A DNA stretch of 64,000 nucleotides from Tannerella serpentiformis. GTDB lineage: Bacteria > Bacteroidota > Bacteroidia > Bacteroidales > Tannerellaceae. The notes under the pieces are model-generated. The model saw only the letters and a list, made by a program, of their open reading frames with translations. It was not told the DNA's origin and did no database searches. Where the stretch lies: NCBI RefSeq assembly GCF_003033925.1, contig NZ_CP028365.1, positions 1,736,001-1,800,000 of the forward strand, given 5' to 3'. Numbering within the stretch: position 1 is the first letter of the stretch; each line of letters starts with the position of its first letter. The translations under genes were made by a program, and so were the position numbers. This document shows, in pieces, positions 288 to 63,136 of the stretch.

Positions 288-565
288 ATTTTTCACCGAC
301 GACCAGTCAATGGCAAAAATTCTCGAGGAAATTCTTTCAACCGAGGGCCGTTGGTCGAATTTCCTTGAGTATTTTTCACCGACGACTAGTCAACGGCAAA
401 AATTCCTCGAGGAAATTCCTTCAACCGAGGGCCGTTGGCCGAATTTCCTTGAGTAATTTTCACCGACGACCAGTCAACGGTAAAAATTACTCAAAGAAAT
501 TCCTTCAACCGAAGGTCGTTGGCCGAATTTCTTCGAAGAAACACCTTCACCAACCCTCGGGTGGA
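288..565. repeat. Tandem array A1, 83-84 bp period (2 x 42), between trpE and trpG
   Basis: About 3.3 copies of an 83-84 bp unit: TTTCACCGACGA recurs at 291, 374 and 458. Each unit splits into two diverged halves of about 42 bp that start TTCACCGACGA and TTCAACCGAGGG. Each unit also carries a CTCGAG-centred dyad flanked by AATTCCTCGAGGAAATT-like arms. The array fills most of the 452-bp gap inside the trp operon (135-586). Short ORFs crossing it look incidental. Nothing else is visible in the gap. Confidence 0.8.
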
Positions 566-586
566 TGAATTTCCGTGTGGAAAGAG

Positions 587-2005
587 CTATCCGAGTGTGG
601 CGGATTGCTCCTCCGCCTCCTCGATGGCGCGCCGGAGGGCGGCCAACTTGTTGTTCACCTCTTGCAGTTCGCCCTCGTCGCTACTGTCGGACACGACGCC
701 GCATCCGGCCTGATACCAAAGCTCGTTGTTGCGGCTGACAAAGGTGCGGATGGTGATGGCCTGCGTCATGTCGCCATCCAGGCCGATGAAGCCGATCGTG
801 CCTCCATAGGCGCCGCGGTTGTGCGGCTCGATCTGGCTGATGAGCTGCATGGCGCGCACCTTGGGCGCCCCGCTGAGTGTGCCCGCGGGGAAGGTGTCGG
901 CGAAGGCCCGGAGCGGGTCTACCCCGGCGTTGAGGGTGCCCTCCACGCGACTGGCCAGGTGGATGACGTGGCTGTAATACTGCGGCTCTTTGTAGAAGAC
1001 TACGCGCACGTCGTGACAGTTGCGAGAGAGGTCGTTACGGGCCAAATCGACCAGCATGACATGCTCCGCGTTCTCCTTCGGGTCGTTCAGGAGCGCCTCC
1101 GTCAGGTGGCGGTCGGTCGGGGCGTCACCCGTGCGTCGGGTGGTGCCGGCGATGGGATCGATGAAGGCGCGTTGGCCCTCGATCTTGCAGTGCGTCTCGG
1201 GCGATGAGCCGAAGATGCGGTAGCCGCCGAAGTCGAAATAGAAGAGGTAGGGCGAGGGGTTGATGCGGCGCAGGGCACGATAGACGGGGAAGTCGTCGCC
1301 GTCAAAAGGCTGGATGAAGCGGCGCGAGAGGACGATCTGGAAGACGTCGCCCCGCATGCAGTGGGCAATGCCGCGGCGCACATTGGCGCGCAGCTCCTCG
1401 TCGGTGAGGGTGCTCACCGCCGGGCCGCGTCGGGCGAAAGCGTAGGTGGCATAGTTGCGGTTGTCGATGGCCGCCTCCAGCGCCGGCAGCCCGCTCTCCT
1501 CTCCGTCGGCCCTAAGCTCCACGAGTCGCAGCTCGCTGCGGAAGGGGTTGATGACGATGACGTAGCGGTAGAGGATGTAGTAGATGTCCGGGGCGTCGTT
1601 GCGCTCCTCGCGGCTCTCGCGGACGGGGATGCGCTCGAAGTAACGGACGGCGTTGAAGGTGGTGTAGCCATAGAGGCCGCACACCCGGCGGTCGTCGCCC
1701 GAGACATGGAAGCGGTTCATGAAGTCGCGCAAGGCATCGGTCACGGCCTCGGGGCGGTCGGGCAGCGTGTGCTCCTCGCGGGCGCCGTCGGGCAGTGTTA
1801 CGGTAGCCGTGCCGCGGTTGATAGCGATGCTCGCCAGCGGACAGAGCGCAATAAACGAACGCGAGTTCTCGCCCGCGTGATAATCCGAGCTCTCCATCAG
1901 CACCGATTGCGGATAGAGGTCGCGTAACTTGAGGTAAAGGCTCACCGGCGTATGCATATCGCCCGGGATCCGTTTGCTATGAGTAGTGTAGTTATAAGTT
2001 TCCAT
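587..2005 (-). CDS. trpE: Anthranilate synthase component I (TrpE)
   Basis: 472-aa chorismate-binding enzyme that makes anthranilate from chorismate with TrpG ammonia. Seen in order: an N-terminal feedback-site motif LMESSDYH (the 'ESS' element that binds Trp in this family), then the chorismate-binding core with GSSPETHCK, DPIAGTTRR, DLARNDLSR, HLASRVEG and SGAPKVRAM. The frame stays open upstream to 2173. I chose the ATG at 2005 (METYNYTT) because the upstream part is encoded by a dispersed hairpin element and looks non-protein, and 472 aa is normal for the family. It is the second gene of trpB-trpE-trpG, and the leader attenuator upstream of trpB should control it. Confidence 0.95.
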   Translation of the reverse strand: METYNYTTHSKRIPGDMHTPVSLYLKLRDLYPQSVLMESSDYHAGENSRSFIALCPLASIAINRGTATVTLPDGAREEHTLPDRPEAVTDALRDFMNRFHVSGDDRRVCGLYGYTTFNAVRYFERIPVRESREERNDAPDIYYILYRYVIVINPFRSELRLVELRADGEESGLPALEAAIDNRNYATYAFARRGPAVSTLTDEELRANVRRGIAHCMRGDVFQIVLSRRFIQPFDGDDFPVYRALRRINPSPYLFYFDFGGYRIFGSSPETHCKIEGQRAFIDPIAGTTRRTGDAPTDRHLTEALLNDPKENAEHVMLVDLARNDLSRNCHDVRVVFYKEPQYYSHVIHLASRVEGTLNAGVDPLRAFADTFPAGTLSGAPKVRAMQLISQIEPHNRGAYGGTIGFIGLDGDMTQAITIRTFVSRNNELWYQAGCGVVSDSSDEGELQEVNNKLAALRRAIEEAEEQSATLG

Positions 2006-2070
2006 ACGATGTAGATCAATTAATAATGAGTCAAAAATTAGAAGCACCCAGCAAAGACAGCCAAAGTCAG

Positions 2071-2172
2071 CCTCTCCCCACCAAGGTACCCGGCAAGGAT
2101 GGCCGGCGTCCCTGACGCCTTGATTTTCTTTTGCTTCTTTTCTTGCATCAAGGCAAGAAAAGAAGGTCATCA
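2071..2172. repeat. Dispersed multi-hairpin element, copy 1 (trpB/trpE gap)
   Basis: The gap between trpB and trpE carries a compound palindromic element: GGTACC, then GGCGTCCCTGACGCC, then CTTTTCTTGCATCAAGGCAAG with its mirrored AAAAGAAGG tail. The same modules recur at about 15.2-15.4 kb and 22.6-22.9 kb, in the opposite orientation. All three copies sit between consecutive genes of one operon. It probably forms a strong mRNA hairpin. Confidence 0.75.
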
Positions 2173-2182
2173 AGGAAGGCCG

Positions 2183-3376
2183 TTAAGGCTTCGCAGAGAG
2201 ATACGTCTCCATATCCTTATCCCCCCGTCCAGAGACAGTCAGCACCACCAGCTCATCCGGTCCGAAACGCAGTCGACCGAGCGCCCCCAGCGCGTGAGCA
2301 GACTCCAGCGCCGGGATGATCCCCTCCAGCCGAGTCAGCTCGTAAGCCGCCTCCACCGCCTCCCGATCCGTCACGGCCACCACCTCCGCCCGTCCGCGAG
2401 CAAAGAGGTTAGCGTGCATCGGTCCGATGCCCGGATAGTCCAGCCCCGCGGAGATCGAATAGGGCTCCTCGATCTGTCCGTCATTGTCCTGCATGACCAG
2501 CGTCCGTGCTCCGTGGATGATGCCCGGCAGACCCAGGTGAAGCGTCGCCGCACTCCGTCCACTCTCCACGCCGCAGCCCGCCGCCTCGGCCAATACGATC
2601 CGCACCCGCTCATCGTCCACGAACGGATAGATCGTCCCCGCCGCGTTGCTCCCTCCGCCGACGCACGCCATCAGGCAGTCTGGCCTGTCACGACCCTCGT
2701 GCTCCTGTAGTTGCCAGCTGATCTCACGTCCGATCACCGATTGCAGTCGTGCCACCAAGTCCGGGTAGGGGTGCGGTCCGACCGTCGAGCCGATCACGTA
2801 GTACGTGTCCGACGGGTGACGGCACCAGTCGCGGATCGCCTCGTTCGTGGCGTCCTTGAGCGTCATGTTACCCGACTCCACCGGCGTCACCTCCCCGCCC
2901 AGCATACGGATCTTCTCCACGTTCGCCCGCTGACGCTCTGTGTCCGTCCGCCCCATGTAGATCATACATTCCATGCCCATCAGTGCGCAGACGGTGGCCA
3001 CGGCCACGCCGTGCTGTCCCGCGCCCGTCTCAGCGATCACCCTCCGCCGACCCATATGTCGTGCCAGCAGCACCTGTCCCAGTGCATTGTTGATCTTGTG
3101 CGAGCCCGTGTGGTTCAGGTCTTCCCGTTTGAGGTAGAGGCGGCATCCGTAGCGTTCCGACATGCGTGCCGCGTGGTAAAGTGGCGACGGCCGACCCGCA
3201 TAGTCACGCAGCAGTGTGCTGAACTCCTGCATGAACGCTTCACTCTCGATCACGCGCAGGTAACTCTCGCGCAGCTCCTCCACGCATCGGTGCAGGATCT
3301 CTGGCACGTACGCGCCGCCAAACGTTCCGTAGTATCCTTCCGGGCTGACCCGGTAATTGTTGTCTTGTCCTTCCAT
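2183..3376 (-). CDS. trpB: Tryptophan synthase beta chain (TrpB)
   Basis: 397-aa PLP enzyme that condenses indole with L-serine to give tryptophan; it normally works as an alpha2beta2 complex with TrpA, which is not in the window. Visible motifs: YYGTFGGAYVPE at the N-terminus, the PLP lysine in HTGSHKINNALGQ, ETGAGQHGVA, and the phosphate-binding CVGGGSNAAG. Length is standard. It is the first structural gene after the trp leader peptide and attenuator, and trpE follows in the same direction. The order trpB-trpE-trpG is common in Bacteroidota. Confidence 0.97.
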   Translation of the reverse strand: MEGQDNNYRVSPEGYYGTFGGAYVPEILHRCVEELRESYLRVIESEAFMQEFSTLLRDYAGRPSPLYHAARMSERYGCRLYLKREDLNHTGSHKINNALGQVLLARHMGRRRVIAETGAGQHGVAVATVCALMGMECMIYMGRTDTERQRANVEKIRMLGGEVTPVESGNMTLKDATNEAIRDWCRHPSDTYYVIGSTVGPHPYPDLVARLQSVIGREISWQLQEHEGRDRPDCLMACVGGGSNAAGTIYPFVDDERVRIVLAEAAGCGVESGRSAATLHLGLPGIIHGARTLVMQDNDGQIEEPYSISAGLDYPGIGPMHANLFARGRAEVVAVTDREAVEAAYELTRLEGIIPALESAHALGALGRLRFGPDELVVLTVSGRGDKDMETYLSAKP

Positions 3377-3449
3377 TCTTTTGGGGTTTATGTCATCGTT
3401 CTTTTGGGGGGATTACATCCAAGGCACGGATTACTCCCCGAAAACAGCA

Positions 3450-3484
3450 GAGGCCCTGCCGCAAGTCGTGTGCGACAGAGCCTC
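3450..3484 (-). terminator. trp attenuator terminator hairpin
   Basis: The minus-strand RNA forms a 13-bp stem (GAGGCUCUGUCGC pairing with GCGGCAGGGCCUC, allowing G-U pairs) around a 9-nt loop, followed by UGCUGUUUU. It lies between the Trp-rich leader ORF (stop at 3523) and the trpB start (3376), where an attenuator terminator belongs. The U-tract is imperfect. I did not work out a clear antiterminator partner; a weak one (GACAAUAGAG with CUCUGUC) is possible. Confidence 0.7.
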
Positions 3485-3522
3485 CATTCATTGTCTCTAT
3501 TGTCAATCGGATCGTTTGTGAC

Positions 3523-3624: not shown

Positions 3625-3646
3625 ATTTCCTTTCGTTTCCGGGCCG

Positions 3647-3677
3647 CAAAGATAAACACGCCTGCTAAACACCCAAA
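3647..3677 (-). promoter_or_regulatory. trp operon promoter (TTTG-N19-TATCTTTG)
   Basis: The minus strand shows TTTG at 3674-3677, a 19-nt spacer and TATCTTTG at 3647-3654, an exact match to the Bacteroidota housekeeping promoter (-33 TTTG, -7 TAnnTTTG). It directly precedes the trp leader peptide. Confidence 0.85.
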
Positions 3678-6654: not shown

Positions 6655-7345
6655 CGGGAGTAAATCATCGTAAATCACTTGCCTTGCGACAAATTACTCC
6701 GGTAAATCATCGCAAATCACTTGTCTTACAATAAATTACTTCGGTAAGTATTCGCAAATCATTTGCCTTGCAATAAATTACTCCAGTAAGTAGTCGCAAA
6801 GCATCTGCATTGCAATAAATTACTCCGGTAAGTATTCGCAAATCATCTGCCTTGCAATAAATTACTTCAGTAAGTATTCGCAAAGCATTTGAATTGCGAT
6901 AAATTACTCCGGTAAGTATTCGCAAAGCATTTGCATTGCGATGTATTACTCCGGTAAATCATCGCAAATCATTCGCCTTGCGACAAATTGCTCCGGTAAG
7001 TATTCGCAAATCATTTACCTTGCGACAAATTAATCCGGTAAATAGTCGCAAAGCATTTGCATTACGATAAATTACTTCGGTAATTAGTCGTAAATCATTT
7101 GCATTGCAACAAATTACTCCGGTAATTATTCGCAAAGCATTTGCATTGTAATAAATTACTCCAGTAAATAGTCGCAAAGCATTTGCTTTGCAATAAATTA
7201 CTCTGGTAAGTAGTCGTAAATCACTTGCATTGCAAAGAATTACTCTGGTAAGTAGTCGGAAAGCATTTGCATTGCGACAAATTACTCCCGTAATTAGTCG
7301 TAAATCACTTGCATTGCGAGAAATTACTTTGGTAGATGATCTTAC
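6655..7345. repeat. Tandem array A2, 42-bp period, about 16 copies
   Basis: Period is 42 bp with consensus ATTACTCCGGTAAGTATTCG followed by CAAATCATTTGCCTTGCAATAA. Units contain the dyad GCAAATCATTTGC (variant GCAAAGCATTTGC). Because 42 is a multiple of three, two minus-strand frames read through as 14-residue repeats, but variant units create stops (for example at 6926-6958), so coding is unlikely. It fills the gap between the TatD-like gene and the next gene; nothing else is visible in 6630-7550. Confidence 0.95.
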
Positions 7346-13376: not shown

Positions 13377-13486
13377 CTATCTTGTTTTTAACGTGGTGTT
13401 CAAGCACACGGGGGGAGAGGCGTCGTATGGCTGCCTATCTCGGAGATCGCTGCCACTCCCTGCGCCGCAAACCATCGCGGCGGGCG

Positions 13487-13494: not shown

Positions 13495-13530
13495 GGGAAA
13501 CGAGGCTACGGGAGGAATAGAGTGTCTCTC

Positions 13531-13794
13531 TCGGACGGTCGTCGAAGCTCTGAACCCTAAGGGTTTTGCCCTTGGACGGTCGTCGGAGCCCTGAACCCTG
13601 AGGGTTTTGCCCTCGGACGGTCGTCGGAGCTCTGAACCCTGAGGGTTTCGCCCTCGGACGGTCGTCGGAGTTCTAAACCCTGAGGGTTTTGCCCTTGGAC
13701 GGTCGTCGGAGCTCTAAACCCTGAGGGTTTCGCCCTTGGACGGTCGTCGGAGCTCCGAACCCTGAGGGTTTTGCCCTCGGACGGTCGTCGGAGC
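13531..13794. repeat. Tandem array A3, 42-bp period, about 6 copies
   Basis: Exact 42-bp period (TCGGACGGTCGTCGGAGCTC then TGAACCCTGAGGGTTTTGCCC). Each unit has the dyad GAGGGTTTTGCCCTC; some units read AGGGTTTTGCCCTT instead, so the two stem bases vary. It occupies the gap between the yhhQ promoter and tRNA-Ala. Confidence 0.95.
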
Positions 13795-13827
13795 ATCTCA
13801 ACGCCCAGGCGTAGACCCATATGAAAA

Positions 13828-19261: not shown

Positions 19262-19345
19262 ATTTAGAGGGTAGAGGTTAGAGGGTAGAGGGTAGAGGTT
19301 AGAGATCGGAGGATAGAGATCATCTATCCTCTATCCTCTACCCTC
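19262..19345. repeat. Low-complexity GGTAGAG repeat with self-complementary tail
   Basis: Short GGGTAGAG/GGTTAGAG direct repeats followed by ATCCTCTATCCTCTACCCTCT, which is complementary to them, so the RNA can fold on itself. It occupies the 96-bp gap between methylaspartate ammonia-lyase and the AtuA gene. GTAGAGGGTAGA also occurs at 22950. Confidence 0.6.
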
Positions 19346-19353
19346 TAAAGGTT

Positions 19354-20677: not shown

Positions 20678-21027
20678 TCAAACCACCTGGTTTGGCCCCA
20701 ATCGGGGTTGGGTTTTGCATCAAACCACCTGGTTTGGCCCCAATCGGAGTCGGGTTTTGCATCAAACCACCTGGTTTGGCCCCAATCGGGGTCGGGTTTT
20801 GCTTCAAACCATTGGTTTGGCCCCAATCGGGGTCGGGTTTTGCTTCAAACCATTGGTTTGGCCCGAATCGGGGTCAGGTTTTGCTTCAAACCATTGGTTT
20901 GGTCCAAATCGGAGGTGGGTTTCGCTTCAAACCATTGGTTTGACCCGAATCGGGGTCGGGTTTTGCTTCAAACCATTGGTTTGACCCAATCGCGGGCCGG
21001 TTTTGGATCAAACCACCGGGTTTGATC
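20678..21027. repeat. Tandem array A4, 41-42 bp period, about 8 copies, inside the glutamate mutase cluster
   Basis: Units of 42 bp (first three) then 41 bp: TCAAACCACCTGGTTTGGCC followed by CCAATCGGGGTCGGGTTTTGC. Each has a dyad AAACCACCTGGTTT or, in the 41-bp version, AAACCATTGGTTT. It occupies the 456-bp gap between mutE and methylaspartate ammonia-lyase. Confidence 0.95.
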
Positions 21028-27033: not shown

Positions 27034-27078
27034 GAGGCGGCGCGCACCCGTGAAGGGCCCGGCCGCCTCGCTTTTTTT
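27034..27078 (+). terminator. Terminator after the TPR lipoprotein
   Basis: GAGGCGGC pairs with GCCGCCTC around a GC-rich loop and is followed by GCTTTTTTT. Confidence 0.9.
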
Positions 27079-27094
27079 CACCCCTTTTTTCTTC

Positions 27095-27847
27095 ATGATT
27101 ATGTCTGAAAACCCTCTCCCCAGGCCGTTGCTTGGTCTGTTCACACCCCAAAACGGCGTCCTGGGCGCATTGCTCGGTTGGTTCACACCTAAAAACGGCG
27201 TCTTGGGCGTGTTGCTTGGTCTGTTCACACCCAAAAACGGCGTCCCGGGCGCGTTGCTACATGGGTTTACGCCCAAATTCCGGGTGTTAGCCCCGATACT
27301 GAATGTGGCTGTTCTGGCCATCTGCTTGTCTGCATGCGGCGGACAGGCGCGGATAGATAAAGAGGATCTGGCGGCCCGTGAGGCTGCGCGACAATACGCT
27401 GACTCTGCGGCGTGGCAGACGATCGATCGTGCCGATTTCTCCATCCGGTATCCGAGCGACTGGACGCTGCAGCCCGAGATCGAGAACGCTGTCTTTTATC
27501 TCTATGCCCCGGCAGAGAGCGACGGGGATCGGTTCCGCGAGAATGTGTCGCTCGTCGTGGAGGTACTCCCCAGCGGGAAATACGATGCCGATAGCTACGT
27601 CGAGGAGGCCGTCAAACTCCTGCAAGTTCAGGTGACAAAGAATGAGCGCGTCGAGTGGGCCGGTCACGTGGGGCGCCGATTGGTCTATACGCAGCGACCT
27701 GCGTTGGATATTGTGACTACGAACGAGCTTTACGTGTGGGTCATCAACGGAAAGGCTTACCTGCTTGCGTTCAGTCGCGAGGAGGGAAACGATGGCGAGC
27801 AAGCCATCACGGGGCAGCGCATCCTGCAAACCTTTGAGTTGAAATAA
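27095..27847 (+). CDS. Small lipoprotein with a tandem-repeat N-terminal extension
   Basis: The C-terminal 165 residues look like a normal exported lipoprotein: a hydrophobic segment ending in LAICLSACGG (lipobox), then a PsbP/DUF-type domain beginning FSIRYPSDWTLQPEIENAVFYLY. Upstream of the lipobox the same frame runs through tandem array A5 and encodes four 14-residue repeats of the type GLFTPKNGVLGALL. The export signal is therefore preceded by about 60 unusual residues. No ATG lies between the array and the lipobox; a GTG near 27284 would lack a basic n-region. I give the ATG at 27095 (27101 is equally possible), and earlier starts overlap the preceding terminator. Either the array was captured as coding sequence, or the true start is non-ATG. 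Confidence 0.65.
   Translation: MIMSENPLPRPLLGLFTPQNGVLGALLGWFTPKNGVLGVLLGLFTPKNGVPGALLHGFTPKFRVLAPILNVAVLAICLSACGGQARIDKEDLAAREAARQYADSAAWQTIDRADFSIRYPSDWTLQPEIENAVFYLYAPAESDGDRFRENVSLVVEVLPSGKYDADSYVEEAVKLLQVQVTKNERVEWAGHVGRRLVYTQRPALDIVTTNELYVWVINGKAYLLAFSREEGNDGEQAITGQRILQTFELK
27134..27301. repeat. Tandem array A5, 42-bp period, 4 copies, in frame in a lipoprotein gene
   Basis: Four exact 42-bp steps starting at 27134, 27176, 27218 and 27260 (GGTCTGTTCACACCCAAAAA then CGGCGTCTTGGGCGTGTTGC). The dyad CCCAA...TTGGG spans each unit. An inverted, diverged two-unit relative lies at 28288-28371. Confidence 0.92.
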
Positions 27848-27922: not shown

Positions 27923-27960
27923 ACTGGTTCGGTTCGTTGATCGTGATAAATAGGTCTAAC

Positions 27961-28130
27961 ATGTAACTCGAAAGTGCTTTTGAATAAGATCAAAGGCATA
28001 ATCATGTAACTCGAAATAGCTTTTGATTGCGATCAAAGGCATAAAATGTAAGTGAATAATGGTCTTGATTGCGGCGCGGTGTGTAATTCATAAACAAGTT
28101 TGTGCTTTTGAATGGGATCGGAGGTGTGCC
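27961..28130. repeat. Diverged tandem array, 42-43 bp period, about 4 copies
   Basis: ATGTAACTCGAAAGTGCTTT is repeated at 27961, 28004 and (shortened) 28046, steps of 43 and 42 bp. GTGCTTTTGAAT recurs 128 bp apart. Units are A/T-richer and more diverged than in other arrays. It fills part of the 600-bp gap 27848-28454. Confidence 0.7.
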
Positions 28131-33150: not shown

Positions 33151-33732
33151 GGCAGAATGTCTGCCGGCGTCATCACACCCCATGATAGCCTCGGCAGAAT
33201 GTCTGCCGGCGTCACCACACCCCATGGTAGCCCTGGCGACAGTGTCGCCGGCGTCACCACACCCCATGGTGGCCTCGGCAGAATGTCTGCCGACGTTACC
33301 ACACCCCATGATAGCTTCGGCAGAATGTCTGCGGGCATCATCACACCCCATGATAGCCTCGGCAGAATGTCTGCCGGCGTTACCACACCCCATGGTGGCC
33401 CTGGCGACAGTGTCGCCGGCGTTATCACACCCCATGGTGGTCCTGGCGACAGTGTCGCCGGCGTCACCACACCCCATGGTAGCCCTGGCGACAGTGTCGC
33501 CGACGTTATCACACCCCATGGTAGCCCTGGCGACAGTGTCGCCGGCGTTACCACACCCCATGGTAGCCTCGGCGACAGTGTCGCCGGCGTTATCACACCC
33601 CATGGTAGCCCTGGCGACAGTGTCGCCGGCGTTATCACACCCCATGGTAGCCCTGGCGACAGTGTCGCCGGCGTTATCACACCCCATGGTAGCCCTGGCG
33701 ACAGTGTCGCCGGCGTTATCACACCCCTTCCG
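33151..33732. repeat. Tandem array A6, exact 42-bp period, about 14 copies, with co-varying dyads
   Basis: Every unit steps exactly 42 bp from 33151. Two unit types alternate irregularly: one with the dyad GGCAGAATGTCTGCC, the other with GGCGACAGTGTCGCC, in the same flanks (CGGCGT..ACACCCCATG). Both arms change together, so pairing is preserved. The flank CATGGTAGCC/CATGATAGCC varies at single bases. It fills the 726-bp gap between the aminotransferase and the kinase-glycosyltransferase gene. Long ORFs through it are by-products of the 42-bp period. Confidence 0.97.
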
Positions 33733-40036: not shown

Positions 40037-40457
40037 TTTTAGGCCCCGACGGGGTGTTGGCCTGCAAAACAGACCGCCTTTTGGGCTCCGACGGGGTGTT
40101 GGCCTGCAAAACAGACCGCCTTTTAGGCCCCGACGGGGTGTTGGCCTGCAAAACGGGCCACCTTTTGGGCCCCGACGGGGTGTTGGCCTGCAAAACAGAC
40201 CGCCTTTTGGGCCTCGACGGGGTGTTGGCCTACAAAACAGACCGCCTTTTGGACCCCGACGGGGTGTTGGCCTACAAAACAGCCCGCCTTTTGGGCCCCG
40301 ACGGGGTGTTGGCCTACAAAACAGACCGCCTTTTGGACCCCGACGGGGTGTTGGCCTGCAAAACAGCCCGCCTTTTGGGCCTCGACGGGGTGTTGGCCTG
40401 CAAAACAGACCGCCTTTTGGGCCTCGACGGGGTGTTGGCCTGCAAAACGGGCCGCCA
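40037..40457. repeat. Tandem array A7, exact 42-bp period, 10 copies
   Basis: Unit TTTTGGGCCCCGACGGGGTG then TTGGCCTGCAAAACAGACCGCC, stepping exactly 42 bp. Dyad CCCCGACGGGG; several units carry CCTCGACGGGG or CTCCGACGGGG, so the dyad is decaying in places. It lies between the DUF6261-like promoter and the 3' end of the metallopeptidase gene. Confidence 0.96.
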
Positions 40458-40474
40458 ATTGGGGGCGCGTTCGG

Positions 40475-45242: not shown

Positions 45243-45463
45243 CCCTAAGCGCGTCGAGACCATTTCCGGCCTGCACATGTTGGCGGGCTATCGTCAGAGC
45301 TCTGGGGGCTATCTCGGGCAGTGTGGAATGCGTCTTCGCAGTCTATGAAACGTGAGTTCGGTGTAAGAATAAAACCAGCAGAGAGTTTCTACGGAAGCCT
45401 GGCCAAAACGTTTTTGGAAATGCCTACAACACTGCGACAAATGCTTCGGAGAACTTTTTGGTG

Positions 45464-45562
45464 TTTGCGGGTACTCCCGCAAGTCTCGCGGCGTTTGCCT
45501 TGGCGTTTGCGGGTACTCCCGCAAGTCTCACGGCGTTTGCCTTGGCGTTTGCGGGAGTCCCG
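45464..45562. repeat. Tandem array A8, 42-bp period, 2.4 copies
   Basis: TTTGCGGG recurs at 45464, 45506 and 45548 (exact 42 bp). Dyad GCGGGTACTCCCGC, in the last copy GCGGGAGTCCCGC. The 575-bp gap 45243-45817 otherwise shows only the promoter at 45717. Confidence 0.85.
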
Positions 45563-45716
45563 CAAGAGCGCTTTTCTCCATTTTGGCGCTTACAAGACTG
45601 TTGCAAGCATTTCCAAAGGCACTTTGGCCATTACAACATGCTATCAGAGACATTCTCTATGAATAAGGGAGTCTCATTCTTTTGTCGAACTCACATTATG
45701 GACAGTATCGGAACGC

Positions 45717-46399: not shown

Positions 46400-46966
46400 A
46401 TGATGACAGCGAAACGATGTAGTTGGTGCGAACGGGATGCCCTTTATCGCGCCTATCACGACGAGGAATGGGGGAGGCCTATCCATGACGATCGGCGATT
46501 GTTCGAGTTGCTTGTTTTGGAGAGTTTCCAAGCCGGGTTGAGTTGGTACACGATTCTGGCCAAGCGTGAGGGATTCCGCGCGGCTTTCGACGGATTCGAC
46601 TATCGGCTTATCGCCACTTACGACGATGTGAAAGTGGAGGCGCTCATGCAAGACACACGGATCGTCCGCAACCGGCAGAAGATCTTGGCGACCATTCAGA
46701 ATGCCGCCCGATTTATGGAAATACAACAGGAATTCGGATCATTCTCCGAGTTTATTTGGGCTTTTGTCGGCGGGAGCCCTTGCGTGAACCATCCCCGCAA
46801 GCTGGAGGATGTCCCGGCTAGCAATCAGACTTCCGACGCGATAGCCTCCGAGCTCAAACGTCGCGGATTCAAGTTCTTCGGCACAACCGTGGCCTACGCC
46901 TTTATGCAATCCGCGGGCTTGGTGAACGACCATATCGAGGATTGTGCCTTCAAGTATCCGGGCTGA
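46400..46966 (+). CDS. tag: DNA-3-methyladenine glycosylase I (Tag)
   Basis: 188-aa base-excision enzyme removing 3-methyladenine from DNA. Visible are RCSWCERDALYRAYHDEEWG with the zinc-ligand Cys and His, LFELLVLESFQAGLSWYTIL, the catalytic region KREGFRAAFDGFDYRLIA, FVGGSP, and a zinc-binding HIEDCAFKY at the end. ATG 46400 or 46403 are equivalent. The final codons and the TGA are the first part of tandem array A9, so the C-terminus has been set by the repeat. Confidence 0.95.
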   Translation: MMTAKRCSWCERDALYRAYHDEEWGRPIHDDRRLFELLVLESFQAGLSWYTILAKREGFRAAFDGFDYRLIATYDDVKVEALMQDTRIVRNRQKILATIQNAARFMEIQQEFGSFSEFIWAFVGGSPCVNHPRKLEDVPASNQTSDAIASELKRRGFKFFGTTVAYAFMQSAGLVNDHIEDCAFKYPG

Positions 46967-47112
46967 CTGAATCTTCATGGATGATGCTTTTCCCAAGCAT
47001 CCGGGCTGACCGAATCCCCATAGACGATGCTTTTCTCAAGCACTTAGGCTGGCTGAAGCCTCGCAGACGGTATTTTCTCCAAGCGTTTGGGCTGACTGAA
47101 GCCCAACAGCGA
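46955..47112. repeat. Tandem array A9, 43-bp period, about 3.7 copies, overlapping the tag stop codon
   Basis: GGGCTGACTGA-type units start at 46961, 47004, 47047 and 47090, exact 43-bp steps. Dyad GGGCT...AGCCC in the last unit. The first unit supplies the last residues (KYPG) and TGA of tag. Confidence 0.88.
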
Positions 47113-47178
47113 TCTTTGCGGGCATGTAGACGCACTCAGCGAATACGAATCATTATTCATTTTATCTATCACTGAACA

Positions 47179-47984: not shown

Positions 47985-48027
47985 GTTATCCGCCGGTCGA
48001 TCCGAAAACCCTCAGCGATTCCGTTAG

Positions 48028-48285
48028 CCTATCCACCGCACTAGACGAAAACCCTCCACCATTTCAGCGACCTATCCACTACACCAGACGAAAGCCCTCC
48101 GCCATTTCAGCGACCTATCCACTACACCAGACGAAAGTCCTCCGAACCACGGAATGCCTATCCGCCGCTCCAGACGAAAGCCCTCCGAACCACGGAACGT
48201 CTATCCGCTGCACCAGACGAAAGCCATCCGAACCAGAGAAGGCCTATCCGCCGCATCGGATGATAGCCCGCAGCAATTTCTGCGG
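48028..48285. repeat. Tandem array A10, 43-bp period, about 6 copies
   Basis: CCTATCCACTACACCAGACG starts at 48028, 48071, 48114, 48157, 48200 and 48243, exact 43-bp steps. Dyad TCCGAACCACGGA in later units; earlier ones have CGCCATTTCAGCG. It fills the gap before the convergent murF-alr gene. Confidence 0.95.
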
Positions 48286-53559: not shown

Positions 53560-54165
53560 TGATCGCTGATAGAATGGGATTGCCGATCGATCCTCCGGCG
53601 TCCCTTCGTTAGGAAAATGGGATTACTAATCGAATCTCCGGCCCCCCTTCATCCGTTAGGGTAGGGGCGTATGGCATACGCCCCACAAATATTCCCTAAA
53701 GAGGATGAATGAAGAATGAACCTCCGGAATCCCTTCGTTAGGAAAATGGGATTACCAATCGATCCTCTGGCATCCATTCGTCCGTCAGGGTAGGGGCGTA
53801 TGGCATACTCCCCGCAACTATCCTCTAAAGAGAATGAATGAAGAATGAACCTCCGGCATCCCTTCGTTAGGAAAATGGTATTACCAATCGATCCTCCGGT
53901 ATCCATTCATCCGTCAAGGTAGGGGCGTATTGCATACGCCCTCCAAGCACCCCCGGATGGGGATGAAAGACCGCAGCTTTAGGCGGGATTTTTCCAACGC
54001 TCGCGCCGGTATCTATTATATACGCTCGCCAAATATCCCCAAATAGAAATGAATAACGAAAGAATCTCCGGCTGCCCTTCATCTAATGAATGGGAAACGC
54101 GCGGCAAATACCGACGGCCCTTCATCTAATGAATGGGGAACGCGCAGTAAACCCCGATTGCCCTT
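53560..54165. repeat. Higher-order tandem array A11, 129-bp period (3 x 43)
   Basis: GGGTAGGGGCGTAT recurs at 53659 and 53788 and, with one change, at 53917: exact 129-bp steps. Each 129-bp unit consists of three recognisable 43-bp subunits (for example CCTCCGGAATCCC at 53721 and CCTCTGGCATCCA 43 bp later). At the distal end the period is 43 bp (TTCATCTAATGAATG at 54078 and 54121). The GGCGTATGGCATACGCC palindrome is shared with 17234-17363. It fills the gap between the hydrolase and DUF6261-like paralogue 2. Confidence 0.92.
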
Positions 54166-54230
54166 CCAATGGCGCCGGGGAATACCCATAAGAACGCCTG
54201 ATGGCTATCCCCCGTGCTCCGCGATAGGTC

Positions 54231-55349: not shown

Positions 55350-55724
55350 AACAGGTATTTGGAACTTCCTCATGCCCCGGATCGCTCACACAATTTTTTG
55401 CGGGCAACCTCGGAGCCTTCGGCGCTGCAAATGTAAACAACTCTTGGTTATCACCTCGCCTCATAGTATCTAAATCGAAATTTTTTTCTGGCTTCATCCG
55501 TATCGGGCGATAGGCCTAAGAAACACCTGTGGAGCTTCGCGGAGTACCGCTGAAGCGAGTCCGTACCTACTTCTGCGAATCACCCAGCCTCGGTGAATGG
55601 GTAAAGCAACCCCTGTTCCCTATCATCGGAAGTAGATGCAGCCAAAAATGGCTTCTGATCAGTCTTCTGAGGGCATTTGAGCATGCTTATCGAAAATCAT
55701 TTTTGCCTTCACCGACACTCAGTG

Positions 55725-56227
55725 AAGCAAAATCGAGATTCATTTTGGGCTTTCGGAGTGTCCGGGAAGCAAAATCGAGATTCATTTTGGGCTTTCGGAG
55801 TGTCCGGGAAGCAAAATCGAGATTCATTTTTGGCTTCCTGAGTGCCCGGAGAGCCAAATCGTAATTCATTTTTCGCTTCACTGAGTCTCCGGGAAGCCAA
55901 AATGAATCTCGATTTTGCTTCACTGAGTACCCAGGAAGCCAAATTGCAATTCATTTTTGCCTCGCCAAGTACCCGGAGATCAAAATCGGGATTCATTTTT
56001 GGCTTCGCATAGTGTCCGTGGATCAAAAACGAGATTCATTTTCGGCTTCATGGAGTGTCCGGGAATCAAAAACGAGATTCGTTTTCGGCTTCATGGAGTG
56101 GCCGAGGATTGAAATCTGGATTTGTTTTTCGCTTCATAGAATAGCCGAGAATCAGAATCGATATTTGTTTTCAGCTTCGTGGAAAGACAGGGAATCAGAA
56201 TCAAGATTTGTCTCCGGATTCATCGGG
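55725..56227. repeat. Tandem array A12, 42-43 bp period, about 12 copies, with one inverted core
   Basis: Units AAGCAAAATCGAGATTCATT then TTGGGCTTTCGGAGTGTCCGGG step 42 bp at 55725, 55767, 55809 and 55851; later steps are 42-43 bp. Dyad CGGAGTGTCCG. The 18-bp core AAAATCGAGATTCATTTT (55729-55746) is present exactly reverse-complemented at 55899-55916. It fills a 1.27-kb gap with no convincing gene. Confidence 0.95.
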
Positions 56228-56483: not shown

Positions 56484-57500
56484 TTACTCGTCCTTAGTCC
56501 GCCCGCGGATGTTACGGATAGCGGCCTCGATCATCGTATCCTTACCGCAATCCATGTCGGCCTTCGTCATATCCACGCGAATATCCGGATCGATTCCGCT
56601 CTCTATGCTCCGTTTGTCAGCGTCAAGCAACGGCGACGCCGAAAAGCGAACCTGCCACCCGTTCGGTAGCTCCGAGCTAAACGGCATGCCTCCCCCGCCG
56701 CCCGTGCGATCGCCAAGAATAACGACGCGATCGATTCGCCGCATGACGTTGATAAAGTCATTCGTTGCGCTGTAGCTATGTCGGTTAGTCAGGACAACCG
56801 TCGGCCGACGCCAGCGCGTATGCGTCGAGGGTCGGAGGTCGACGGGATAAGGTTCGGAGAAGTCGGAATGACCCGGGCCAGTCTTGTGCACAATGTATCC
56901 CGTCCTTATCGGCTCACTCAGGAATCGTGACGCGATACGCTCGACGTTAGTCAATGCGCCCCCGCCATTGCCACGCACATCGATGATCAGCCCTCGGCAA
57001 GTGCGGAAGAAATAGAAAATCTCATCCAAATTTGTTTCGCTGACTGCGGATGAAAAGCTACCGTAATAGATGTAGCCTATCTCCGTGCCCGGCAGCTTGA
57101 CGTAACGCATGCCGCCGGCTATCCCATAGCGCGTGCCTAAGTAATTTCGCTGGATGTCGGCATTGAAATTGCGCGGATAGTCCTCAAACCACGCCCAGTA
57201 GCGAGCCGTATTGAACGGAGATACAAGATTCGTGTGACCGTCTTTCAACTCCGCCAACATATCGGAAAGCAAATCGAAGAGCTCATAGCGACTCATCGTA
57301 TCCGAGAGTTGCCGTTCGTACTTTCTGCGGACAACCTCCCAGTCGACGCCCTTCTCCTCAAAGAAACAATAATGCTCGTCGATGATGTGCCAGAGCGCTT
57401 CAAAGTTCTCGCGAGGGCTTGCGCTGTAACGGTCCGCTTTGTCGCAGCCCGGCAAAAGCAGAATCAAAAAGATCAGGAAATAGGGAACACGTATTTTCAT
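56484..57500 (-). CDS. S41-family peptidase lipoprotein
   Basis: 338-aa lipoprotein with signal peptide MKIRVPYFLIFLILLLPGC (lipobox Cys at 19). It carries a short tail-specific-protease-like N-terminal helical domain and a C-terminal S41 core: GLIIDVRGNGGG (about 170-181), a TNRHSYSATNDF region with the predicted nucleophile Ser around 244, and ILGDRTGGGGGMPFS. No PDZ domain is evident. It probably degrades peptides in the periplasm or outside the outer membrane. ATG 57500 is preferred over TTG 57506. The start codon itself lies at the edge of array A13, whose units repeat an ATGAAAGCACGT sequence similar to the gene's ATGAAAATACGT. Confidence 0.88.
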   Translation of the reverse strand: MKIRVPYFLIFLILLLPGCDKADRYSASPRENFEALWHIIDEHYCFFEEKGVDWEVVRRKYERQLSDTMSRYELFDLLSDMLAELKDGHTNLVSPFNTARYWAWFEDYPRNFNADIQRNYLGTRYGIAGGMRYVKLPGTEIGYIYYGSFSSAVSETNLDEIFYFFRTCRGLIIDVRGNGGGALTNVERIASRFLSEPIRTGYIVHKTGPGHSDFSEPYPVDLRPSTHTRWRRPTVVLTNRHSYSATNDFINVMRRIDRVVILGDRTGGGGGMPFSSELPNGWQVRFSASPLLDADKRSIESGIDPDIRVDMTKADMDCGKDTMIEAAIRNIRGRTKDE

Positions 57501-58630
57501 AAGCAATCAATGAGTAACAGCGAATAGCCGCCTACCCTCCGGAACGCAATCACTGACACACCCCGATAGACAAACGACCCTAATTCGCTTTTCGTTTTTC
57601 ATTTTCGGGTCAATGATACGCACTTTTATAAGCAATCAATGAGTAACAGTGAATGGTTTCCGATCCTTCGGAGCGCAATCGCTAGCACTATACGATAGAT
57701 AAACGGCAATGATTCGCCTTTCATTTTTCATTTTCGGGTCAACAATATGTGCTTTCATAAATATTCAATGAGTAATGGCGAATAGCCGCCGACACTTCGA
57801 GTGCAAATGCAGGCACTCACCGATAGATAAATGGAGATGATTTGCCTTTAGTTTTTCATTTTCGGATCAGCAATACGTACTTCCATAGGTGTTTAATGAA
57901 TGACGGCGAATAGCCGCCGATACTTCGAGGTGCAATTGCTGATACTCTACGATAGGCAAACGGAAATAATCCGCCTTTAGTCCTTCGTTATCGGGTTAGC
58001 GATACGTGCTTTCATAGGTGTTCAATGAATGACGGCGAATAGCTGCCGATCCTTCGGATCGTAATCGCCAGCACTTCAGGATAGGAAAACGGGAACGATG
58101 CGCTTTTACTCCTTCGCTTTTAGATCAGCGACACGTAACTACACAAGCATTCAATGAGAGACAGCGAATAGCCGCCAACCATCCGGAGTGCAATCGCCAG
58201 TACTTCACGATAGACGAACGGAAATGATTCGCCTTTCGTTTTTCATTTTCGGGTCAGCAATACGTGCTTTCATAGGTATTCAATGAGAGACAGCGAATAG
58301 CCGTCGATCCTTCGGAGCGCAATCGCCAGCACTTCACGATAGGCAAACGGCAATGATTCGCTTTTAGTCCTTCGTTATCGGGTTAGCGATACGTGCTTTC
58401 AAAAGCATTCAATGAGAGACAGCGAATAGCCGACGACCATTCGGAGTGCAATCGCTGGCACTCTCTGATAGGAAAACAGGAATGATCCGCCTTTAGTCCT
58501 TCGTTATCGAGTTAGCGATACGTGCTTTCATAGGTGTTCAATGAATGACGGCGAATAGCTGCCGACACTTCGGAATACAATCGCTGGCACTCTCTGATAG
58601 GAAAACAGGAATGATTCGCCATTAGTCTTT
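57501..58630. repeat. Higher-order tandem array A13, about 129-bp period, nearly 9 copies
   Basis: AGCAATCAATGAGTAACAG-type starts at 57501, 57630, 57759, 57887 and 58016 (steps 128-129 bp). Each unit again divides into 43-bp thirds; the first two are visibly related (AAGCAATCAATGAG and ACGCAATCACTGAC, 43 bp apart). It fills the 1.14-kb gap between the S41 gene and DUF3316 and runs directly into the S41 start codon. Confidence 0.93.
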
Positions 58631-58640
58631 TATTTTCGGA

Positions 58641-59498
58641 TCAGTAATATGCACTCCGGAAGGCCTTGTTATGGCGCACGCGCTTGCCGGAAAAGGGTAT
58701 GAATTCCTTGGCCACACCGAGGAGGATACTGCTACCGAAATAATGCGTGCGAATGCCGTTGGTGTGCGATTGGTAAACGTCGGCCTCATACCCAATCCGC
58801 ATGGTCCATGGACCCACGGGCACATCGGCGGTGAGCAGGCTCCGCAAGGCGAACCTATTGTGCAGCGATCCCAATCGGACTATACCGGCACGATGGCCAA
58901 GAGTAAAGATCTCGTAGTACGATTGCCCGTAGTGCGGGGAGAAGAAGACACCAACGAGTGGGAGGTTGGCCTGCCAGCGGACAGTCACCGGATAGCGCCG
59001 GCGACCCAAGTCGAAACCGTAGAGGATAGCCGCAGAGAGCCCCAGATCGCCTTCCACGTGCAGCACCGCAGGGTTATTGCCGCCCTGCGAGCGATAGGCC
59101 GTGCCCAAGAGATAGCGCCCCGTACCGCCGACGAGCAATCGCAGACCGTCCACACTGGTCTCCAGACGTCGGTGCAGGCTGTAGCTGTAGTCAATGAAGG
59201 CCGCGTAACCACTCGATGTGCCTGCTGGATTGCGGATCGAAGCGAGATCGATGCGAAAGGTGCGTTGCCGCGACCAACGGTCATTGATGATCCGCATACG
59301 TTCGTTGATAACGCCGATGCCCAGGCCATCATAACCGACGTCGGAGAGGTATGTGTTCTTAACGTAGCGACTGCCCAGGCTGACCATCGTGCCTTCATTC
59401 ACCGACCGCGGTGCTTGAACGACGCTATCCGTCTGTGCACGCAGGGTGAGAGGAAGGAGAATGAAGAGAGTGAGCAGAAAGAGGAAGCTGCGGATCAT
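58641..59498 (-). CDS. DUF3316 outer-membrane protein
   Basis: 285-aa exported protein: signal peptide MIRSFLFLLTLFILLPLTLRAQ, then antiparallel strand-like segments (GSRYVKNTYLSDVGYDGLGIGVINERMRII..., YAAFIDYSYSLHRRLETSVDGLRLLVGG) that fit the DUF3316 barrel family of Bacteroidota. No catalytic motif is seen. Likely an outer-membrane protein of unknown function. It lies 3 nt after the topoisomerase gene in the same direction, so it is co-transcribed. Array A13 follows its stop. Confidence 0.82.
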   Translation of the reverse strand: MIRSFLFLLTLFILLPLTLRAQTDSVVQAPRSVNEGTMVSLGSRYVKNTYLSDVGYDGLGIGVINERMRIINDRWSRQRTFRIDLASIRNPAGTSSGYAAFIDYSYSLHRRLETSVDGLRLLVGGTGRYLLGTAYRSQGGNNPAVLHVEGDLGLSAAILYGFDLGRRRYPVTVRWQANLPLVGVFFSPHYGQSYYEIFTLGHRAGIVRLGSLHNRFALRSLLTADVPVGPWTMRIGYEADVYQSHTNGIRTHYFGSSILLGVAKEFIPFSGKRVRHNKAFRSAYY

Positions 59499-62159: not shown

Positions 62160-62212
62160 ATTGATGGGGATTCTATCTGTCTAACCTACGCGCCGTTTCC
62201 ATCGGCGGCGGG

Positions 62213-62220
62213 CAAAAGTA
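62213..62220 (-). promoter_or_regulatory. -7 box of the parC operon
   Basis: TACTTTTG on the minus strand, 54 nt before the parC start; -33 not evident. Confidence 0.5.
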
Positions 62221-62326
62221 GGCGAATTTGCCCACCCCTTTGGCGCGAAATGGCGGCCATCCGCGTCGGGGCGGAAATACTGCGCAAATCCGTCTGCCGC
62301 TCCCGGTTTACCCTCGAAAGTCTCCA

Positions 62327-62460
62327 ACGACGCGATGCCCCCAATCCGTAAAACCCTCATCGTGCCGAACGACGCGACGGTCTCAACCCATAAAACTCCC
62401 GCCGTGCTGAATGATGTGATGGTCTCAATTCATAAAAGCCCCATTATGCCGAACGAGGGC
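62327..62460. repeat. Tandem array A14, 42-bp period, 3 copies
   Basis: ACGACGCGATGCCCCCAATC and two further units (ACGACGCGACGGTCTC..., ATGATGTGATGGTCTC...) of exactly 42 bp each. It is the first of three abutting arrays between parC and rseC. Confidence 0.8.
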
Positions 62461-62481
62461 ATGGCCTTGTGTCTGTTGGTT

Positions 62482-62756
62482 TTTGGCGAGCGACTTTTTA
62501 TATCTGTGGAAAATATCTCGATAATAAAATGGTGACCATTTATAAGTAGAGAGATTTTGTTGAGAATAAATCGTCCACTTTTTTATTCCCGATAAAGTCG
62601 ATTGCCTATAAAAAAGTCACTCGCTTATTCCTGATAAAGTCTATTGGGTATAAACGGGTGACTTTTTATTTCCGATGGAGACTTGCTCACAATAAAAAAG
62701 TCGCTGTTTTATTTCTGAGAGAGTTTGTTCAGTAATAAAAAGTGACCCGCTAAAAA
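62482..62756. repeat. Tandem array A15, 42-bp period, about 6 copies, with flipped cores
   Basis: A/T-rich units starting ATAAA step 42 bp from 62524 (62566, 62608, 62650, 62692, 62734). Some units read AAAAAAGTCACTCG, others GGGTGACTTTTTAT at the same place, i.e. the core is inverted between units. Sequence is unrelated to A14 and A16 on either side. Confidence 0.85.
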
Positions 62757-63136
62757 CCGAAGCAACCGAGACCATGCCCTCGTTCGACATGATGGGGCCT
62801 TCATGTACCGAGACCATGCCCTCGTGCGGCATGATGGGGTCTTCATGCACCGAGACCATGCCCTCGTGCGACATGATGGGGCCTTCACACACCCGGACCA
62901 TGCCTTCGTGCGACATGATAAACCCTTCACGCACCGAGACCGTGCCTTCGTGCGACATGATGGGGCTTTCACGCACCCGGACCATGCCTTCGCGCGACAT
63001 GATGGGGTCTTCACACACCCGAGCCGTGGCGTCGTTCGGCACGATGAAACCTTCACGAATCCAGCCCGTAGGGTCGTTGGACAGAATGAGGAATTTGCGA
63101 ATCGGCGCGGTCGTGTCGCGGGGCATGACAGGGGCG
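62757..63136. repeat. Tandem array A16, 42-bp period, 9 copies
   Basis: Units CATGCCCTCGTGCGACATGA then TGGGGCCTTCATGTACCGAGAC step 42 bp from 62773. Dyad CATGCCCTCGTGCGGCATG in the second unit, weaker in others. It precedes the rseC promoter. Confidence 0.93.

Follow-up and report, generated by a model that had tools for sequence, protein, structure and literature searches.

Tandem repeats whose unit length is kept constant while the unit sequence varies freely have been described in bacteria by Subirana and Messeguer, with sizes of 20–21 nt, which they equate with two helical turns, and 52 nt (PMC8161180). In the available portion of that report, a protein that polymerizes on DNA and needs constant spacing, or small RNAs, are suggested as explanations (PMC8161180). 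The reason why the length is kept and the sequence is not has been raised as an open question in print. In this study, we analyzed a window (the whole stretch of DNA examined, 64 kb) from Tannerella serpentiformis (Bacteroidales), together with a genome sample of 864 kb, which is 29% of the 3.01 Mb chromosome. The arrays found here are like the repeats in that report (PMC8161180) in that the length is constant and the sequence free, several families are present in one genome, and they are non-coding, with periods that are not bound to multiples of three. Species specificity, a further trait in that report, is seen for the 33158–33727 family, the only one tested against relatives, which was found in 0 of 40. 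In contrast, the size is 41–42 bp and not 20–21 or 52 nt, and the short conserved sequences that the available portion describes as common to repeats of many genomes have no counterpart across the 94 families of this genome (PMC8161180). Dyads, a 10.4-bp phase in base composition and longer units near n × 42 further distinguish this genome from the repeats as presented there, and the available portion names no Bacteroidales (PMC8161180). Because of their size, the arrays form a further size class rather than belonging to either described class; no 41–42 bp class was found in the literature searched, the reach of which ended at subscription papers and supplements. A sequence-only reading of the window had known of no described family with constant length and free sequence. 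This view is not supported, since the kind is already known; what is new is the 41–42 bp size, together with dyads and indications of a helical phase.

REP/BIME elements and GTAG-tagged palindromes are also short intergenic palindromes that occur many times per genome (PMC3733652, PMC2817692), and the GTAG type is present here as well. However, according to the available portions of these papers, REPs fall into families defined by sequence, each with a constant tag (PMC3733652, PMC2817692), whereas no sequence is common to the 42-bp arrays. Because of this difference, and because no Y1 match was found in the array-bearing relatives G004, G014 and G016 (assemblies 93%, 99% and 99% complete), an identity with REP/BIME was rejected. 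A Y1-type transposase as the driver was also rejected: one copy is present here and none in those three genomes. In eukaryotic alpha satellite, the monomer length is kept while the sequence drifts, and each higher-order unit contains an integral number of monomers. The arrays share the kept length and the whole multiples; in contrast, their monomer is 42 bp and not nucleosome-sized, and they are short, are located in many places and are bacterial. Like the arrays studied here, CRISPR arrays are regularly spaced palindromic repeats. The window arrays lack spacers and consist of direct head-to-tail copies at many loci, and therefore an identity with CRISPR was rejected.

Tandem arrays in the window and in the sampled genome

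Seventeen places in the window had been listed as arrays from the sequence alone. All of them are tandem arrays, and TRF detects 16 of the 17; none is assigned a strand. Periods of 42 bp were obtained at 6668–7328 (15.7 copies; four related places in the same genome), 27126–27277 (3.2–3.6 copies; within a script gene call, 27050–27847), 33158–33727 (13.5 copies; a three-member family in the sample and eight more places in the genome), 40037–40463 (10.2 copies; hairpin GCCCCGACGGGGT; a seven-member family), 45458–45566 (2.6 copies; hairpin TTGCGGGTACTCCCGCAA; in the largest family, with 15 members) and 62326–62456 (3.1 copies). Periods of 43 bp were obtained at 27957–28073 (2.2–2.7 copies), 46960–47117 (3.7 copies), 48003–48269 (about 6 copies) and 54074–54166 (2.2 copies), the last of which was absent from the first list. 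The array at 55689–56223 has a period of 42–43 bp and was also scored at 85 and 127. Some of the step sizes given previously are corrected here: the steps at 13530–13802 are 41 bp (6.6 copies; hairpin AACCCT-GA-GGGTT; a four-member family), and those at 20678–21015 are mostly 41 bp, with 42 bp in the first three units (8.2 copies; two hairpins per unit; a four-member family). The 84-bp step at 277–531 (three copies) stands as a period, but it is composed of two 42-bp halves, which are about 50% alike at a shift of 42. Units of 129 bp correspond to 3 × 43: one such array, 53592–53941, has no clear internal 43-bp repeat (self-identity 0.36) and contains the GTAG-type palindrome GTAGGGGCGTATGGCATACGCC, and the other, 57489–58649, has periods of 129 and 387 (3 × 43 and 9 × 43). 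The array without a TRF row, 62451–62770, is strongly diverged. A script applied to it gave 42-bp steps, with a lag-42 identity of mostly 0.4–0.6 in sliding windows and 0.47 overall, and several units have, by eye, pairing arms at both unit ends. The adjacent array, 62765–63057 (period 42, 6.1–6.9 copies), lies inside an open frame of 173 aa.

In the 864 kb, 191 TRF arrays have a period of at least 12 and a score of at least 100. A period of 40–43 is seen in 117 of these (8 of 40, 42 of 41, 60 of 42 and 7 of 43), and for 52 of the remaining 74 the period differs by at most 2 bp from a multiple of 41 or 42, which is a loose criterion. The mean base period is 41.60 (sd 0.77, n = 151). Nearest identical 11-mers that are 40–43 bp apart occur at 13,392 per Mb here. 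In a comparison set of 100 other loci of Bacteroidales, a few of which are of the same genus, the value is 123 per Mb; the density here is approximately 100-fold higher. Because this distance measure is independent of TRF, the peak does not come from that program. Absence of a peak in the period distribution would have refuted the sequence-only reading; in the sampled genome the distribution does peak, at 41–42 bp and multiples. The reading had also denied coding constraint as the cause, and our results agree: 41 and 43 are not divisible by three, and changes in the 62765–63057 array, the only open-frame array tested, are distributed 7, 8 and 7 over the codon positions. A coding minisatellite was therefore rejected for that array. 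Of 173 arrays, 10 fall within script gene calls, counted after removal of 20 low-scoring calls, mostly within arrays, and some short weak calls. Intergenic gaps of all orientations contain arrays, and the array share of gap length is alike, at 27–30%, in convergent, divergent and same-direction gaps of the sampled genome; no association with gene ends was seen in this comparison. Many of the tests in this study are exploratory, and the p values are given without multiplicity correction.

Dyads and helical phase

Four helical turns of 10.4 bp correspond to 41.6 bp. In 87 family consensuses, the purine share at 10.4 bp was 0.083 versus 0.057 in shuffles, and the A/T share was 0.071 versus 0.054 (0 of 300 shuffles in both cases); in non-array intergenic 42-mers, the purine share was 0.052. 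These values suggest a modest 10.4-bp signal in base composition. A purine test on 31 arrays of relatives looked positive; it was not counted because internal 21-bp repeats biased the result, and in the fair subset of nine arrays free of 21-bp repeats the signal was absent (159 of 300 shuffles reached the value). A phase of A-tract bending was rejected: the autocorrelation of A-tract trinucleotides lacks a 10-bp peak, although a small component at 10.4 bp is present in A/T content.

The units tend to hold one or two imperfect palindromes. Perfect stems of at least 7 were found in 54 of 151 consensuses versus 7 of 755 letter shuffles, and a dyad with a score of at least 4.5 was found in 70 of 94 families versus 44.4 in dinucleotide shuffles. 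Paired dyads tend to be one or two helical turns apart (10–11 or about 20–21 bp). When a spacing of 9.5–11.5 bp or of at least 18.5 bp is counted as phased, 17 of 25 families qualify; among shuffles, 54 of 173 do so (Fisher's test, p 0.0006). Because a fully palindromic unit gives 20.5–21 bp automatically, only the peak at 10–11 bp, seen in 8 of the 25 families, is independent of this effect. Stems change more slowly (0.062) than loops (0.104) and the rest of the unit (0.100). Covariation within arrays is weak, with 40 compensatory cells versus 27 by shuffling.

Nineteen arrays have a period of at least 60 without an internal repeat. For 15 of these, the period deviates from n × 42 by no more than 3 bp (no more than 5 bp when n = 5); the other four periods are 60, 63, 72 and 78. 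In a Rayleigh scan of the 19 periods, the peak was at 21.3 (R 0.75) and 42 gave an R of 0.69; therefore, 21 fits as well as 42. The sequence-only reading had proposed helically phased sites as one of two possibilities. The 10.4-bp purine component and the dyad spacing favor this idea, but a 10.5-bp phasing rule alone is too weak, because 15 of the 19 long periods cluster about multiples of 42, and a single period (63) is at an odd multiple of 21. In the 15 units near n × 42, the purine power at 42 bp was 3.77 versus 1.19 in shuffles (0 of 300), and under a stricter self-identity bar (n = 11) it was 2.43 versus 1.19 (2 of 300), which hints that some long non-repeating units may be old, diverged arrays. 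For A/T content, the long non-repeating units showed no excess at 42 bp and an excess at 14 bp. Their excess of purines at 10.5 bp was weak (6 of 300 shuffles, and 89 of 300 when the stricter bar was applied).

Sequence families, relatives and SbcCD

At the threshold used, the units form 94 families, which are mutually unrelated at the sensitivity used. Because multiple members were found for 26 of the 94 families, 23 of which extend over more than one stretch, and because some families have only half a unit in common, we consider that units have been copied about and shuffled. The earlier claim that units share essentially nothing between loci is valid within the window but not genome-wide: the arrays at 13.5, 20.7, 33.2, 40.0 and 45.5 kb have family members at other sampled loci. 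Blocks of units, sometimes including both hairpin arms, are swapped between copies and families while the unit length is kept. The junction palindrome in 33158–33727 is recoded on both arms between copies. Length-restoring pairs of indels numbered 47 versus 23 expected (maximum 30 in 20 trials). Unpaired indels versus substitutions were 74/2258 here and 23/541 in control arrays. Because unpaired indels are not much rarer than in controls, a low indel rate and inherited length could contribute. No 5–8-mer is common to the 94 families above the shuffle maximum; the top 6-mer is in 12 of 94 (shuffles: mean maximum 9.8, highest 14). A shared ancestral pattern was rejected on this ground and because circular two-letter comparisons between families (R/Y, W/S, K/M) gave z of at most 2.4.

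The array at 57489–58649 occupies the entire 1134-bp gap between two genes. In relatives, matches to the same gene pair were compared at 46 loci and are separated by 6–200 bp. The array has no match elsewhere in its own genome. It seems, as judged from these comparisons, to have been born in place. Relatives of the same genus, the nearest of which is G014 (GyrA 80% identical), bear arrays of 41–42 bp, or of 21 bp and its multiples including 63 bp, and 41–42 bp also appears in relatives with different sequences. In a search for plasmid carriers, one sampled array (L108:6272-6576) was unmatched in 72,556 plasmid records.

Neither SbcC nor SbcD was found in this genome. Within the genus, eight genomes that lack SbcCD had more arrays per Mb than six that possess it (Mann-Whitney p 0.021, kinship ignored), and array density was also correlated with GC among genus genomes (Spearman 0.65, p 0.013, kinship ignored). 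Array density in the genus thus follows the loss of SbcCD, although confounders are present. G003 lacks SbcCD, yet no array was seen in 115 kb of this genome, and none was seen in four genomes from other families in which no SbcD exceeded the cut-off. HU genes are not expanded (five here and 3–11 in same-genus relatives).

Possible explanations of the arrays

Our best explanation, which we put forward tentatively and at somewhat less than an even chance, is that the arrays are constant-size, variable-sequence satellites of a further size class of 41–42 bp (four turns), and are phased DNA sites read by structure. They may function as helically phased, structure-recognized sites, in which the geometry of the DNA would be the conserved property. 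Dyads or hairpin-forming sites would recur on the same helix face, and a structure-reading protein indifferent to sequence would bind side by side; a nucleoid-associated or HU-like protein, or a hairpin or cruciform binder, is a candidate. Arrays would arise in situ in gaps and then grow and spread via recombination or slippage at palindromes. Absence of the hairpin nuclease SbcCD, as here, may allow arrays to be tolerated or favored, and arrays out of phase would be lost. To the question left open in print, this genome adds a length that fits whole helical turns, helical-phase signs at the sequence level and dyads, as well as length-keeping exchange of blocks, an array that was apparently born in a known gap, and SbcCD loss as a candidate genetic condition; together, these make the question testable by ordinary comparative genomics.

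A less probable, although serious, alternative is inherited length: one ancestral 41–42 bp satellite spread, its sequence was replaced blockwise by recombination and array-wide indels were rarely fixed, with neither ruler nor function. The multi-member families and shared half-units are consistent with it, and by a rough reckoning an sd of 0.77 is approximately what the low rate of unpaired indels would give after about one substitution per site. However, it is opposed by the lack of a common 5–8-mer and of a purine pattern between families beyond weak traces, by the apparent birth of the 57.5-kb array, by the non-repeating units of 82–252 bp that are mostly near n × 42, although some of these may be old diverged arrays, and by the presence of 41–42 bp in relatives with other sequences.

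Turning again to phased sites, a wider form of the explanation, which we regard as somewhat unlikely, is that bacterial satellites are generally whole helical turns, namely 20–21 (two turns), 41–42 (four, here) and 52 (five, Bacillus), kept only if their dyads share one face. In this view, they would be tracks recognized by their shape, the bacterial equivalent of satellite chromatin, and free to grow where SbcCD has been lost.

More doubtful is length-specific amplification, in which an enzyme of replication, repair or transposition that measures out 42 bp, or slippage at hairpins, would copy any sequence in tandem, and the arrays would be mutational by-products. The apparent birth in situ, the free sequence, the near-n × 42 periods without internal repeats and the enriched hairpins with SbcCD missing would all fit. 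In contrast, no candidate enzyme was found, the Y1-type transposase being the enzyme type searched, and a pure ruler predicts neither the dyads, nor the slower change of stems, nor the 10.4-bp purine component.

It is improbable that the arrays work as RNA, as transcribed rows of hairpins (terminators, mRNA stabilizers or small RNAs). Hairpins change on both arms between families, and constant-size satellites are reported, in the available portions of the sources, to be transcribed in Bacillus coagulans (PMC8161180; PMC8625621). However, the similar array share in every gap orientation shows no preference for 3′ ends, and Rfam at the gathering score gave only one tRNA in the window. G-T mismatches in stems exceed A-C mismatches on the reference plus strand (212 versus 142, p 0.0002); on the transcript strand, the numbers are 114 and 118, and this lack of a G-T excess speaks for DNA over RNA. 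Finally, chance or an artefact of assembly or algorithm can practically be dismissed, since, although short near-threshold TRF arrays do accumulate at 21–24 bp in other Bacteroidales loci, it is contradicted by TRF scores that reach hundreds, the k-mer distance excess, 7% substitutions between array copies and the recurrence of this size in further genomes of the genus.

Two tetranucleotides are only a little above shuffles: GTAG is in 15 of 94 families (11.9 shuffled) and CGTC in 35 of 94 (26.7). GTAG-type palindromes gave 66 pattern hits in the sample, and 31 of these are within 50 bp of an array.

A recurrent unit length of 41-42 bp

The genome of T. serpentiformis is a single contig of 3,013,500 bases (99.84% complete), in which the window occupies positions 1736001-1800000. 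The first three matches of its GyrA to named records were 'Tannerella sp.' MAGs, with 72-75% identity. We sampled 40 evenly spaced 20-kb stretches together with the window (864 kb; GC 0.574), and searches for comparison covered 24 congeneric genomes. TRF gave 191 arrays with a period of at least 12 at a score of at least 100. The period was 40-43 in 117 of them, and 169 deviated by at most 2 bp from a multiple of 41 or 42; this criterion is loose at long periods. From 173 arrays in 864 kb, about 600 can be extrapolated for the whole genome. Distances between nearest identical 11-mers peaked at 42 (5835) and 41 (4704), followed by 84, 82, 126, 40, 123, 168, 210 and 252. 11-mers spaced 40-43 bp apart numbered 13,392 per Mb, as compared with 123 per Mb in 100 loci from other Bacteroidales, a few of which are from the same genus. 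Because this measure uses no repeat finder, an artefact of the algorithm is ruled out. The sequence-only reading had listed 17 places in the window with a common period of 42-43 bp. TRF detected arrays at 16 of these. The 62.5-kb array is real though diverged: at lag 42 its identity is 0.47 over the whole array and mostly 0.4-0.6 in sliding windows. An additional array was found at 54.07 kb. The period histogram of the sampled genome has the 41-42 peak and its multiples. The initial observation is confirmed and extended.

The base period has a mean of 41.60 (sd 0.77). In 94 arrays, 47 length-restoring indel pairs were observed versus 23 expected at random, with no more than 30 in any of 20 trials; some of the pairs are block replacements written as gaps by the aligner. 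The same arrays contain 74 unpaired indels and 2258 substitutions, a ratio not much lower than that in 39 control arrays (23/541; one control is a 41-bp array of a relative). Therefore, the keeping of length is not a simple absence of indels. Among 19 periods of at least 60 without internal repeat, 15 were at 82-85, 124-129, 168, 210-215 or 252, and the others were 60, 63, 72 and 78. The Rayleigh test gave p of about 1e-4 at 42 (R 0.69), but the peak of the scan was at 21.3 (R 0.75), and some of these loci neighbour each other. In 15 units near a multiple of 42 with self-identity below 0.40, purine power at 42 bp was 3.77 versus 1.19 (0/300 shuffles); under a stricter limit of 0.36, which leaves 11 units, it was 2.43 (2/300 shuffles). 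This residual power suggests that at least some of these units are very old 42-bp arrays that were re-amplified. A/T content in these units had no excess at 42 bp and some excess at 14 bp (4 and 14 of 300 shuffles).

Sequence freedom and gene context of the arrays

A threshold score of 36 divides the 151 arrays with a base period of 40-44 into 94 families; the number is 84 at score 30 and 112 at score 44. At score 36, 68 families are single and 26 have several members, three of these being confined to one stretch. A score of at least 30 was reached by 120 of 11,325 array pairs and by 0 of 6000 null pairs. The proposal that units share essentially nothing between loci suits the window but not the whole genome, since five of the window arrays have family members at other sampled loci: unit sequences are free, yet not wholly unrelated. 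In the largest family (15 members), both arms of the hairpin TTGCGGGACTCCCGCAA are recoded between loci (TTGCAGCATTCCTGCAA, TTGCGGAACTTCCGCAA). Unit halves are swapped between families at constant length, and in the array at L101:7644 one palindromic block, AAATGA-CCC-TCATTT, has given way to another of equal length, AAACCC-GCC-GGGTTT. Between families, no common purine pattern exceeded z 2.4, and no common 5-8-mer across the 94 families rose above the shuffle range. No other place in the genome matches the 57.5-kb array, and the 33.2-kb family was found in none of the 40 relatives searched.

Genes were called with a home-made caller; we then dropped 20 low-scoring calls, which lay for the most part in arrays, together with some that were short and weak. 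The 173 arrays were located in same-direction gaps (90), divergent gaps (33), convergent gaps (27), gene calls (10) and at stretch edges (13), and they make up 27-30% of gap length in each orientation class. The gap on the far side of the gene next after gyrA measures 1134 bp and is filled by the 57.5-kb array; measured between protein matches, the corresponding gap in relatives spans 6-200 bp over 46 loci (at least two genomes being counted twice), with 6 bp in the nearest, G014. Two further gaps, each compared with one relative locus, are 308 bp versus 23 bp (the array in this one has a period of 57 bp rather than 42 bp) and 615 bp versus 15 bp. Therefore, arrays seem to have been gained in place, inside formerly short gaps. 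At window 62641-63162 (- strand), a 173-aa open frame with a 14-residue repeat and without codon-position bias crosses a 42-bp array. This frame is probably a by-product of 42 being divisible by three.

Signs of helical phase and of constraint on stems

Perfect stems of at least 7 were present in 54 of 151 consensuses and in 7 of 755 letter shuffles. In the 87 family consensuses without a 21-bp repeat, the fourth (10.4-bp) harmonic was raised for purines (share 0.083 versus 0.057) and for A/T (0.071 versus 0.054), each with 0/300 shuffles. Harmonics 2 and 5 were not raised, and harmonic 3 was weakly raised for purines (9/300 shuffles). Among 25 families with two dyads (palindrome centres) at threshold 4.5, the spacing was 9.5-11.5 bp in eight and at least 18.5 bp in nine. 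These 17 of 25 phased families compare with 54 of 173 shuffles (p 0.0006); at threshold 5, the count was 14 of 19 (p 0.00015). Whole-unit palindromes explain the 20-21 bp class but not the 10-11 bp class. Helical phasing, as had been proposed, thus gains indirect support from the harmonic and the dyad spacing, but the 10.4-bp component was not seen in nine relatives' arrays without a 21-bp repeat. The units may be helically phased DNA sites recognized by their structure by a sequence-indifferent protein, a mechanism that we favour tentatively.

Substitution rates were 0.062 in stems, 0.104 in loops and 0.100 elsewhere, and on the transcript strand G-T was no more frequent than A-C (114 versus 118). 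Therefore, any constraint on the stems looks to be at the level of DNA rather than RNA. In contrast, one-sided stem changes read on the reference + strand in the own-genome sample gave 212 G-T versus 142 A-C (p 0.0002), for which we have no explanation. Compensatory changes within arrays were few (40 versus 27 by shuffling).

Relatives, known satellites and other repeats

In the parts sampled, 41-42 bp arrays occur in seven genomes of the genus (G004, G010, G013, G014, G015, G016 and G024; 1 to 5 arrays each, 7-80 arrays of the n x 42 type per Mb, irrespective of coding status), and G021 has one 44-bp array. None were found in 80-117 kb each of G003, G009, G017, G018 and G023, or in 361 kb from four genomes of other families. 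Several relatives of the genus have 21-bp or 63-bp (3 x 21) arrays, irrespective of coding status (for example, L218:5070-5352, L219:417-760 and L090:984-1177). Thus, one genus holds the published two-turn size (21 bp) beside the four-turn size. The claim that no family with constant length and free sequence had been described is wrong: the constant-size repeats of Subirana and Messeguer, of 20-21 and 52 nt, are of the same kind, and the present genome adds another size class to these satellites. These authors remark that 20-21 nt corresponds to two helical turns (PMC8161180; PMC6749651). In our own synthesis, the sizes 20.8, 41.6 and 52 correspond to 2, 4 and 5 helical turns at 10.4 bp per turn. 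Searches of the freely readable literature gave no report of the 41-42 class.

Of the 24 same-genus relatives, 13 give matches to both parts of the hairpin nuclease SbcCD, with SbcD scoring above the cut-off and SbcC matching strongly (E 1e-44 or better; fragmented in G012 and G019); the SbcC model cut-off was reached by 0 of 41 genomes. Neither was found in the near-complete T. serpentiformis genome, searched whole, or in 11 relatives, several of them incomplete (G001, G003, G004, G005, G010, G011, G013, G015, G016, G022 and G024). Array density was higher in eight SbcCD-lacking than in six SbcCD-bearing genomes (p 0.021, kinship ignored), where contigs were partly picked by earlier matches, draft MAGs may break at repeats and several genomes are incomplete. 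Density also correlates with GC (p 0.013). A link between SbcCD loss and array density is a lead.

One Y1 transposase match is present (G000:C1:1380004-1380351). REP-like palindromes starting with GTAG (GTAGGGGCGTAT..ATACGCC) lie at window 17245, 17331, 53661 and 53919; there are 66 matches in the own-genome sample. Of these, about half are no more than 50 bp from an array, and the palindromes also form part of some long n x 42 units. Separate 22-bp repeats such as GTGGTTGTGATACGTTCGGAAC (L092:17655-17970, L114:13464-13796, L122:17993-18120 and L095:4705-4869) have periods of 22, 44, 64-66 and 88. Heptamer arrays of TAGAGGG and its complement are located at L092:18790-18894, L123:5923-6137 and window 19265-19347.
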